Below, piece after piece: positions 6,131-9,765 of a stretch of DNA of 49,898 nt. The translations under genes were made by a program, and so were the position numbers. This DNA is from an uncultured cyanobacterium (lineage in GTDB: Bacteria; Cyanobacteriota; Cyanobacteriia; PCC-6307; Cyanobiaceae). Positions within the stretch are counted from its first letter, which is position 1, and every line of letters starts with the position of its first letter. Location of the stretch: positions 1 to 49,898 of the forward strand of contig CAIZQU010000077.1 in the NCBI GenBank assembly GCA_903935205.1, in the 5' to 3' direction. The notes under the pieces were generated by a model. It ran no database searches, was not told the origin of the DNA, and was given only the letters and a program-made list of their open reading frames with translations.

Positions 6131-6844
6131 TCAGGCGCGCCCTGGGCTGGTGCCGTCCCGGTGGGCGAGCACCGCCTCGGCAATGGTCAGATCGAAGCTG
6201 GTGGTCAGTTTGATGTTGGCTGGTGTGGCTTCCAGCACCTGCACCGGCAGCCCAAGCCGCTCGAACAGGGCCGCGTCATCGGTGACGTTCCATCCCTGGG
6301 AGGCGGCTGTGGCATGGGCCTGGCGCAACTGGGTCACGGCAAAACCCTGGGGGGTCTGGGCCGCCCATAGGCGGCTGCGGTCTGGGGTGGCGCAGATCGT
6401 GCCGCTGCCATCCACCTCCTTGATGGTGTCGGTGACCGGCACCGCGGCGATGATGCCGGCGCCGGCCGGGATCGCCTCGCCGAGGGCGAGGGCGCAGCGC
6501 TCCAGCAGCTCCGGTGTTACCAGGCAACGGGCCCCGTCGTGGATCAGCACGGCCTCGGCCTGATCGGGGAGGGCGTCCAGTCCCCGGCTCACCGAGTCCT
6601 GGCGGGTCTCACCGCCCAGGATCCAGACCACCGGCCGATCGGGTTGGGCGTTGGCCACGATGGCCGCGATCGCCTCAGCGTCCTGGGATTGGCCGACGAT
6701 GCCGATCCAGCGAATCGCTTGGCAGGCCAGGGCCGCATCCAGGGTCCAGGCGAGCACGGGGCGGCCGGCCAGGGGCAGCAACAGCTTGTTGCGGTCGGCG
6801 CCCATGCGGCGGCCGCTGCCGGCGGCGGCGATCAGCAGATGCAC
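6131..6844 (-). CDS. ispD: 2-C-methyl-D-erythritol 4-phosphate cytidylyltransferase
   Basis: MEP-pathway enzyme making CDP-methylerythritol from CTP and MEP. The N terminus carries the nucleotide-binding loop [18 protein letters not shown]; later come [15 protein letters not shown] and [17 protein letters not shown], and the C-terminal substrate loop [14 protein letters not shown]. The GTG at 6842-6844 is preferred because a GGGAG stands 8 bases before it and the protein then begins directly at the conserved strand. An ATG at 6887-6889 would add 15 unsupported residues. It is divergent from the GT9-like gene at 6975. The product is 237 aa, normal for IspD. Confidence 0.88.
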
Positions 6845-6882
6845 AAGCAAGCTCCCGGAAGCGGGACGGGAAGAACCTGATC

Positions 6883-6890
6883 CATACAAT
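6883..6890 (+). promoter_or_regulatory. Candidate -10 element (CATACAAT)
   Basis: The hexamer TACAAT at 6885-6890 sits 84 bases before the ATG at 6975. The octamer CCATACAAT also occurs before the thioredoxin gene on the other strand, and CCATACGAT before fabG. No -35 is evident. Confidence 0.35.
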
Positions 6891-6974: not shown

Positions 6975-7817
6975 ATGCGTGCATTGTTTCTGATTCCGGG
7001 CGATGGGCTGCAACAGCTCCAGGCCTTCCCCGCCGTGGCGGCCACCGCCGAGCAGCTCGGCTTCACGATCCAGGTGGCCTGTTCCCCCGAACAGGCCCCC
7101 CTCTGGAAGCTGCTGCCGGTGGTCGAAAAGCTGATCCCGTTCAGCTTCGGCGATGCCACCCTGGCGGATTGGGCCAATCTGCTCGGTTCGGTCCGCGATC
7201 CCGATTTCCAGGTGGCGATCAATCTGGCTCCCAGCCGCCAGATGGACCTGATGCTGTCGATGAGCCACATCCCAACCCGGGTGGCCAGCTCCGGCTTCTC
7301 CGCCACCACCCGGGTGAGCGAACCACCGGCCGGCTGGGGAGCCCAGTCCCTCGCTGGATACCTCAGCCCGGTCGGGGTGAGTCTTGATGCCTCCGCCTTC
7401 AGGCTGGCGATACAACCGTCTGCCTTGGCGGAGGCCACGGCGGGATTGCCTCCGGGAGATGGTCCCCTGCTCTTGTTGGCCCCAGCTGGCGGTCCGACGG
7501 ACTGGCCTGAGATTCATTGGCAGCAGCTGCCGGATCGGATTCGCGCGAACCTACCCAGCCTGCGCTGCCGTCAGCTGCCGCCGGCCACGGTCGCTACGGC
7601 ATCCCGCCGTGCCGCCGAAATCGCCGCCAGTGATGTGGTGCTGGCGAGCGATCCGCTGACCATTGAGTTGGCGCTGTATTGCGGCACGCCCCTGGTGGCC
7701 CTCGGCCGAGGCAGTGAAAGCCTGCCGGCACGGGACGGGGTGAGCGGCGTCGCCCCGGCCGGCTCCCTGGCTTCCCTGGGGCTCGATCCAGTGCTGCAGG
7801 CTCTGGGGCTGAACTGA
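6975..7817 (+). CDS. Glycosyltransferase family 9-like (heptosyltransferase-type) protein
   Basis: Protein of 280 aa beginning MRALFLIPGDGLQQLQAFPA, a Rossmann start like that of ADP-heptose:LPS heptosyltransferases. The second half has LLLLAPAGGPTDWPEIHW, the counterpart of the GT9 donor-site segment, and ASDVVLASDPLTIELALYCGTPLVAL, matching the conserved GT9 region in which D and T bind the donor. Likely acts in cell-surface polysaccharide or LPS assembly at the cytoplasmic face. Length is shorter than enterobacterial heptosyltransferases (about 320-350 aa), so a divergent picocyanobacterial variant is probable; acceptor and donor are unknown. The ATG at 6975 is used; the open frame upstream is antisense to ispD. 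The next gene starts 3 bases after the stop, suggesting one transcript. Confidence 0.68.
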   Translation: MRALFLIPGDGLQQLQAFPAVAATAEQLGFTIQVACSPEQAPLWKLLPVVEKLIPFSFGDATLADWANLLGSVRDPDFQVAINLAPSRQMDLMLSMSHIPTRVASSGFSATTRVSEPPAGWGAQSLAGYLSPVGVSLDASAFRLAIQPSALAEATAGLPPGDGPLLLLAPAGGPTDWPEIHWQQLPDRIRANLPSLRCRQLPPATVATASRRAAEIAASDVVLASDPLTIELALYCGTPLVALGRGSESLPARDGVSGVAPAGSLASLGLDPVLQALGLN

Positions 7818-7820
7818 GCC

Positions 7821-8969
7821 ATGGCGCTCCGGAAGGCACCGCCCACTTCCGGAAGGGTTCCAACCCGATGGAGGAGGAGACCCCCGCCTACCCGCGCGCG
7901 CCACCCCTGGCTCTCGCCGATTCTGCTGTTGGTCGCGGTGGTCAATCTCACGGCGATCGGCTACCGCATCACCGAGGGCTGGGACTGGGGAGACTGCTAT
8001 TGGATGGTGGCGATCACCATCCCCGGTATCGGCTATGGCGAGGTCCATCCGCTCTCAGCGGCGGGCAGGGTCGTCACCGTGTTCTCGATCATCGGTGGCC
8101 TGGCGGTGCTTCAGCTTGCCGCCCAGAGCCTTCTCGGCCTCTCCGAGTCGGGTTATCTGCGTCGGGTTCGCCATCGCCGCCTCATCCATTGGATCCGAAC
8201 CATGCAGGACCATGTCATTGTCTGCGGCTATGGCCGCATCGGTCGTGAGATCGCCGAGCAGTTGCTGCGAGAAGGGGTTGCGATGGTGGTGATCGAACTG
8301 GATCCGGAGCTTCAGGCGGCGGCGGAAAGCCGTGGCATTCCCGTGATGCTCGCCGATGCAACCCGCGATGAAACCCTGCGCCAGGCCGGCATTCTGCGCT
8401 GCCGCAGCCTGGTGGCGGCCCTGTCGAGCGATGCCGCCAATGTGTATGTGGTGCTCAGCGCCCGGGCCATCGCCCCTGATTGCCGGCTGATTGCCCGCTG
8501 TGACAACGAGGAGGCGGCCCGCAAGCTGCGCCAGGCCGGAGCCGACCAGGTGATCAGCCCCTATGTGGCCGGCGGTAGGGCGATGGCGGCCATCGCCCTA
8601 CGGCCCCTGGCCATGGACTTCCTTGAACTGGTGGCTGGTTCGGACTGCGAGGTGGAGGAGTTCCAGCTCAGCGAGGATCCCCGTCAGCTCGGACACCTGG
8701 CCGGCCGGTCCCTGGCGGACCTGGAGATCAAACGACGCACTGGCGTGCTGGTGCTGGCGGTCAAACAGCCCACCGAGCCGATCAGCACCACCCCTGATCG
8801 CGCCATGGGCCATCAGGTGGCCGGCGAGCGGTTGATCGCCAACCCGCCGGTGGAAACCCGTCTGGCACCAGGCCAGCTGCTGGTTGTGCTGGGCAGCCGC
8901 GAGCAGCTGGCCCGTCTGCGCAAGTTGCTCGGAGTCGCGGTAGTGCAGGAAAGTGCCATGCCCGGCTGA
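7821..8969 (+). CDS. Two-TM ion channel with cytoplasmic RCK (TrkA-N/TrkA-C) domains
   Basis: Channel subunit of 382 aa. A basic N terminus precedes TM1 (about 30-50), a pore helix with filter at residues 69-74 (GIGYGE), and TM2 (about 80-106). The RCK/TrkA-N domain follows, with dinucleotide motif [14 protein letters not shown] (about 132-145), an acidic strand-2 end (VIELD), and a C-terminal TrkA-C-like domain. The overall plan is that of MthK-type potassium channels that form tetramers gated by RCK rings. The filter is odd: the usual T-T-V-G-Y-G-D is here P-G-I-G-Y-G-E, so the threonine preceding the GYG core is glycine, and selectivity may be altered. It is immediately downstream of the GT9-like gene (3-base gap). 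Potassium specificity is inferred from the family. Confidence 0.82.
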
Positions 8970-9012: not shown

Positions 9013-9765
9013 ATGACCCTCTCCCCATCCTCCCCAGAGCAGGTGGCTCTCGTGACCGGTGCCAGCCGTGGCATCGGGCGCGCCATCGCCCTCCATCTGG
9101 CCAGCAGTGGCGCCACGGTGGTGGTCAATTACGCCAGTTCACCCGAGAGTGCCGAGGCTGTGGTGGCTGCGATTCACGAGGCCGGAGGCCGGGCCTGGAG
9201 CCATCGGGCCAATGTGGCGGAAGAGGAGGAGGTGGAGGCCATGGTCAAGACGGTCCTGGAGCGGGAGGGACGGCTCGATGTGCTGGTGAACAACGCCGGC
9301 ATCACGCGCGATGGATTGCTGATGCGCATGAAGAGCGCCGACTGGCGACAGGTGATCGATCTCAACCTCACCGGGGTGTTTCTCTGCACCCGGGCCGTCA
9401 GTCGCAGCATGCTGAAGGCCCGCAGCGGCCGCATCATCAACATCACGTCCGTGGTGGCCCTGATGGGCAATCCCGGTCAGGCCAATTACAGTGCATCCAA
9501 GGCTGGTGTGATCGGTCTCACCCGAAGCAGCGCCGCTGAATTTGCCAGCAGGGGCATCACGGTCAATGCGGTCGCTCCCGGTTTCATCGTCACCGACATG
9601 ACCCGCGATCTGGATCAGGGGCCAATCCTTGCGGCGATCCCTCTGGGACGGATGGGACGACCGGAGGATGTGGCCGGAGTTGTTCACTTCCTCGCCTGCG
9701 ACCCCGCCGCCGCTTACATGACCGGCCAGGTCCTGCAAGTGGATGGCGGAATGGTCATGCGCTGA
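9013..9765 (+). CDS. fabG: 3-oxoacyl-[acyl-carrier-protein] reductase
   Basis: Short-chain dehydrogenase of 250 aa performing the first NADPH-dependent reduction in type II fatty acid elongation. Visible motifs: the cofactor loop [10 protein letters not shown] (about 15-24), [14 protein letters not shown], the catalytic serine in [16 protein letters not shown], and the YSASK Tyr/Lys pair. [10 protein letters not shown] and the C terminus [13 protein letters not shown] are typical of FabG. The chosen ATG gives standard length; an earlier start at 8953 would only extend into the upstream channel gene. The downstream neighbour is the low-GC GT39-like gene, which looks like an insertion. Confidence 0.93.

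Follow-up and report, generated by a model that had tools for sequence, protein, structure and literature searches.

A 2TM-RCK channel of an uncultured Cyanobiaceae cyanobacterium with glycine in place of the S4 filter threonine

In the selectivity filter of potassium channels, a threonine lines the innermost K+ site (S4) with its hydroxyl and its carbonyl. This threonine and the third filter glycine are near-invariants, and the case for their roles rests largely on engineered mutants and simulation. A channel gene in the genome of an uncultured Cyanobiaceae cyanobacterium (GCA_903935205.1) has been read with a glycine at the S4 position, which raises the questions whether the glycine is real, whether it marks a group of picocyanobacterial channels and what it would mean for the passage of K+. 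The gene was analysed in its window, the stretch of 49,898 nucleotides at positions 1 to 49,898 of contig CAIZQU010000077.1.

The channel gene and its surroundings

The open reading frame at 7821-8969 starts with ATG and encodes 382 amino acids without an internal stop. Pfam recognised Ion_trans_2 (residues 36-100), TrkA_N (132-247) and TrkA_C (339-371), all above the cut-off. The best solved relative by sequence was MthK (query 27-327, E 2.9e-29), which was also the best fold match of the AlphaFold2 single-chain model (mean pLDDT 86.2); GsuK was matched as well. Two transmembrane helices around a pore loop were found with Ion_trans_2 and with the model helices at 31-52, 56-66 and 80-110, and a cytosolic RCK domain with N and C lobes was found with TrkA_N, TrkA_C and the two fold matches. 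The gene is an intact MthK-type (2TM plus RCK) channel. The full-length fold matches to MthK had low TM-scores of 0.35-0.45 (by query length) and an rmsd of 11-13.5, which we take to reflect a different mutual placement of pore and RCK domain in the single-chain model. The models confirmed the fold; near the filter, where ten-residue blocks scored 74 and 62, they were less confident and were not used to judge its geometry, and a single chain cannot show ion binding. The features of the locus are as follows.

6131-6889, minus strand: conserved neighbour, which we take to be ispD (synteny)
6984-7817, plus strand: conserved upstream neighbour, presumably glycosyltransferase-like (synteny)
7821-8969, plus strand: 2TM-RCK ion channel gene, 382 amino acids (open reading frame, Pfam, MthK sequence and fold matches, AlphaFold2 model)
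7911-7976, plus strand: first transmembrane helix, residues 31-52 (AlphaFold2 model)
7986-8018, plus strand: pore helix, residues 56-66 (AlphaFold2 model)
8016-8042, plus strand: filter T-I-P-G-I-G-Y-G-E, residues 66-74 (translation, codons)
8022-8024, plus strand: Pro68 (CCC), found at this site in 15 of 42 genus genomes, an ordinary variant
8025-8027, plus strand: Gly69 (GGT), replacing the S4-site threonine (threonine in 201 of 201 other distinct homologs)
8058-8150, plus strand: second transmembrane helix, residues 80-110 (AlphaFold2 model)
8214-8561, plus strand: RCK N-lobe (TrkA_N) with the Rossmann motif G136-x-G138-x-x-G141 (Pfam); MthK C1 calcium ligands not kept
8835-8933, plus strand: part of the RCK C-lobe (TrkA_C; Pfam)
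9013-9765, plus strand: conserved downstream neighbour, presumably fabG (synteny)

The filter is encoded by ACC (T66), ATC (I67), CCC (P68), GGT (G69), ATC (I70), GGC (G71), TAT (Y72), GGC (G73) and GAG (E74). Open reading frame, translation and codons bear out the initial annotation, which had read T-I-P-G-I-G-Y-G-E in an RCK-type channel with glycine for the threonine of the innermost site. From the K+ signature T-x-G-[YFL]-G-[DE], the glycines and the aromatic residue are present in G71-Y72-G73-E74, and the S4-site threonine is absent. MthK shares the 2TM pore and the RCK domain with the window channel, but has the threonine in TIATVGYGD (T59 in PMC11251424), and where its D184 and E210 align, the window channel has Ala and Arg. 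The proline that had been taken as a further anomaly is indeed there; as part of the anomaly it was rejected, since no fixed threonine precedes the S4 position (MthK has Ala) and 15 of the 42 genus genomes carry proline.

In the RCK domain, the MthK residues D184, E210 and E212, which we take to be the ligands of the calcium site C1, align to Ala200, Arg226 and Asp228. Ala200 is found in 190 and Arg226 in all of the 202 distinct homologous channels compared. The Rossmann glycines 136, 138 and 141 are kept in 202, 197 and 202 of these channels, and residue 159 is acidic (E or D) in every one. Because these residues are kept and the C1 ligands are not, a nucleotide-bound ring is likelier than calcium at C1, and gating is probably controlled by a nucleotide at the RCK Rossmann fold.

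The gene order ispD-GT-channel-fabG was found in the window and altogether in 122 of 145 locus records, which include repeated fetches of some genomes; 102 of the 122 also had groEL. The remaining records showed ispD-GT-channel only (2 of 145) or the channel alone (21 of 145). Among the latter are L043, L062 and L063, loci of 7.6-11 kb without the usual ispD, fabG and groEL neighbours, so the gene sits elsewhere in that lineage. A switch of filter design between close relatives was found in this same lineage.

A second channel copy in the genome that would free this one was rejected, as the sole other match covered RCK residues 133-366 and had no pore. At C161:15611-15805 (L294), the genome holds a second Ion_trans_2 protein, KirBac-like in our reading, with the filter T-L-G-S-I-G-Y-G and the hydroxyl of a serine at S4. 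The genome also encodes one TrkH-family protein, and K+ uptake therefore need not depend on the window channel alone. Synechocystis has five K+ channels including SynCaK (sll0993), described as a Ca2+-dependent K+ channel in the plasma membrane of cyanobacteria, and the growth of synCaK, synK and kirBac6.1 mutants is reported as unchanged under high osmotic pressure and salt (PMC13099474); SynK is the subject of PMC2853561, where the K+-uptake-deficient E. coli strain LB2003 was used, and of PMC3928508. SynCaK and the window channel are likely members of one broad group of cyanobacterial channels. Distinct potassium channels, an inward rectifier among them, are described from freshwater picocyanobacteria (PMC9361551); the accessible part of that paper makes no mention of the window gene or its filter.

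Glycine 69 among homologs and its expected effect

Nearly all sampled family members carry the channel. Homologs were found in 42 of 42 genomes of the genus (threshold 1e-3), in 273 of 300 of the family (1e-30) and in 177 of 386 of the phylum (1e-20); among the family genomes that are at least 90% complete, 192 of 197 had one. One scan of GTDB genomes yielded 80 loci. The 284 loci were reduced to 202 distinct channels by merging rows that were identical over residues 40-300, and L082 (no pore) and L215 (a 10-base locus) were dropped; these channels are the fetched part of the homologs, an uneven family sample that is richest near the window's genus. Threonine occupied the S4 position in 201 of the 202, glycine only in the window, and 19 more distant homologs of the phylum all had the threonine. 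Read from the residue before the threonine, the filters of the 42 genus genomes were ATIGYGE (15), PTIGYGE (13), STLGFSD (5), STMGFSD (3) and STIGFGE (2), with STIGYGE, PTIGFGE, TTIGYGE and the PGIGYGE of the window once each. L036 (CALPNT020000005.1), titled as a Bifidobacterium breve MAG, holds a cyanobacterial channel at 68% identity, and its title or bin is probably wrong.

The KcsA mutants T75G, T75C and T75A are changed at the same filter position, T75G by the same substitution; these are engineered proteins, whereas the window glycine is natural, stands in an RCK channel and lies between a proline and an isoleucine. In KcsA T75C and T75G, site S4 is removed and the occupancy of S2 is lower, the conductance of the T75X mutants is down 3- to 17-fold, and MthK T59A and NaK2K T63A are non-selective (PMC11251424). 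Recovery from inactivation is prolonged in T75G at an unchanged inactivation rate (review PMC7337057). The earlier suggestion that the protein may conduct differently is thus supported by precedent. No natural filter of the GIGYG or GVGYG type was found in the literature searched, which left most subscription journals aside, among papers that combined at least three of six terms.

The reading we prefer, and to which we give an even chance of being right, is that the intact window channel with its unique Gly69 would still pass K+, with a weakened S4, a low conductance and possibly a weaker K+/Na+ discrimination. In the tetramer, the exchange of threonine for glycine would remove the hydroxyl ligands of S4, and the site would then hold water and no ion while K+ still passes. 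The conductance would be several-fold lower as in KcsA T75X, the recovery from inactivation slower as in KcsA T75G and the K+/Na+ discrimination possibly weaker as in MthK T59A. From the KcsA T75 mutants and MthK T59A, a K+-permeable channel with a water-filled S4 and a low conductance would be expected. A loss of selectivity is not assured, because Kv1.5 T480A and Shaker T442A are still K+-selective (PMC11251424). Two points could speak against this reading: the adjoining Pro68 could re-stiffen the filter, and the raised divergence at second codon positions could reflect relaxed constraint.

With the first of these points, the glycine would be functionally neutral, leaving K+ selectivity and conductance essentially normal, since the backbone carbonyls and the stiff Pro68 would compensate for the hydroxyl. 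The selectivity retained by Shaker T442A and Kv1.5 T480A (PMC11251424) and the occurrence of Pro68 in 15 of the 42 genus genomes agree with this, but all other distinct homologs examined have the threonine, and in MthK, the closest structural relative, T59A is reported to be non-selective (PMC11251424). We consider neutrality rather unlikely.

Constraint on the window copy

Relaxed constraint would make the filter change one step in the decay of a channel whose function is being lost in this lineage, which is unlikely in our judgement. It is favoured by the divergence of the copy. Among the 47 loci that carry the channel plus four neighbours (window included), the window channel had the largest mean protein distance (0.505, compared with a mean of 0.336 for the others), a ratio of 1.5 against 1.08 for IspD, 1.09 for GroEL, 1.15 for GT9 (ranked second of 47) and 1.17 for FabG. 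Against seven near relatives the ratio rose to 2.12, though FabG (1.63) and GT9 (1.60) were also raised, with GroEL at 1.28 and IspD at 1.13; the whole lineage has therefore diverged, and the channel most. Nine of the 118 positions conserved in at least 95% of the family rows are changed in the window (median 1; rank 2 of 183), and position 69 is the only one of the nine that is otherwise fully invariant. When the pore columns were left out of the tree, the window channel grouped with GYG channels and had an end branch of 0.7 (0.54 in another tree). Three small-genome relatives, L188, L189 and L190 (G044, G104 and G050), have shortened open frames of 241-250 amino acids, and in two of them the match contains stops, which suggests that the gene has been lost in some lineages.

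The open frame of the window, however, is full-length, and its divergence is uneven. Identities to five clade mates were compared with those of the clade mate L084. They were 0.81-0.93 in the pore segment (L084 0.85-0.96) and 0.65-0.81 in TM2 (0.68-0.84), but 0.60-0.68 in TM1 (0.68-0.80), 0.45-0.65 in the linker (0.60-0.85), 0.72-0.76 in RCK-N (0.83-0.91) and 0.58-0.62 in RCK-C (0.73-0.83). Conservation of the pore segment and TM2 is close to that in the clade mate, and the rest has drifted, above all the RCK part. The view that the remainder of the protein looks normal therefore applies to the pore segment and TM2, and not to TM1, the linker and the RCK lobes. Codon positions also speak against decay. 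Between the window and its clade, the differences were 0.41-0.53 at third and 0.16-0.19 at second positions, with first positions also below third. As third positions still differ most, purifying selection has acted; as second positions differ by only 0.07-0.12 between L084 and the other clade members, the constraint on the window copy is weaker, not vanished.

An error of sequencing or assembly is very improbable as the source of Gly69. The glycine comes from a single genome, in 169 contigs, but the S4 threonine of close relatives is encoded by ACC or ACG, from which GGT takes two or three changes, here in frame and with clean codons around; a single-base sequencing error was rejected since at least two changes are needed. 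The canonical threonine in the homologs, which the initial annotation had linked to an isolated change or a sequencing error, thus points to the former. A pattern for codons beginning with C, G or T at the S4 position matched in 7 of 400 family genomes, and the match of the window was the sole one inside the channel; the other six loci had no match to the channel. A-initial codons other than ACN are covered by the 202-row alignment, for its rows. A conserved picocyanobacterial subtype defined by P-G-I-G-Y-G-E, as had been suggested, is refuted within the sequences examined and extremely improbable, because all other distinct homologs keep the threonine and the glycine occurs in one of 42 genus genomes, one of 202 distinct channels and, for the pattern inside the channel, one of 400 family genomes. 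The initial interpretation was half right: the channel is possibly altered, but it is a singleton.

Filter designs of the relatives

Of the 202 distinct channels, 80 have another residue instead of the third filter glycine. Their filters were T[LM]G[FW]SD (72), TIGYSE (3), TVGYSE (2) and, once each, TVGFAE, TVGYQE and TLGLTD; L291 and L202, with T-V-G-Y-Q-E and T-V-G-F-A-E, have Gln or Ala for the glycine. Two extra residues between filter and turret were found in all 73 channels of the SD/TD type and in none of the other 129. On trees computed without the filter, the loss of the glycine took 16 changes, 11 of them forced by strong branches (FastTree), and the SD type alone took 11, 7 of them forced; its single origin was rejected with p-AU 2.5e-7 (short search, 87 rows). 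These trees come from quick or FastTree searches, and within-gene recombination may inflate the counts. A tree of three neighbour genes from the 47 loci, a set without the switching pairs L043/L062 and L047/L072, required only 2 changes for the SD type, one of which was probably a reversion to GYG within an SD clade. Because the channel trees and the neighbour-gene tree disagree, it is uncertain how often the design switched, and recombination may account for part of the scatter of the SD type on the gene tree.

Between the sisters L043 and L062, filter and turret together are 43% identical, against 91-95% for TM1, pore helix, TM2 and RCK, and the L062 gene (3563-4633) has an SD-type filter in an otherwise G-Y-G background. 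In 15-residue windows from 63, 69 and 75, its nucleotide identity was 0.87-0.91 to L072 and 0.62-0.77 to L043, whereas in the rest of the gene it was 0.90 to L043 and 0.75 to L072. This mosaic looks like the swap of a short cassette of roughly 50-70 bp. L046 and L037 are nearly as close to the L062 cassette as L072 (0.88 and 0.87 compared with 0.90), and the likeness to L072 could partly come from shared constraint on one design. We propose tentatively, as possible but still doubtful, that the filter is an exchangeable cassette, with a short xTIG[YF]GE and a two-residue-longer xT[LM]G[FW]SD design, and with the window as a third, singular design that lacks the S4 threonine. Recombination and repeated change would shift lineages between designs while the transmembrane helices and RCK stay, and in the longer design the third glycine would always be lost together with the insert.

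In searches that lay mostly outside the subscription journals, none of the listed papers described a channel with a GFSD filter, and no description of glycine-loss filters in cyanobacteria was found. GYSE and GYSD appeared as filters only in PMC3283738, whose accessible part describes protozoan channel homologs that its authors suggest to be non-selective or non-functional. These resemble many relatives of the window channel in the loss of the third glycine; the window channel itself, unlike them, has kept G-Y-G.

A natural equivalent of KcsA T75G, together with dozens of channels without the third glycine, would allow soft and direct knock-on to be tested on proteins kept by selection. Such channels would also prompt the question which ion is really carried in these widespread phototrophs. 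If the filter is indeed an exchangeable cassette, a very widespread group of phototrophs would be tuning K+ selectivity itself, or giving it up.
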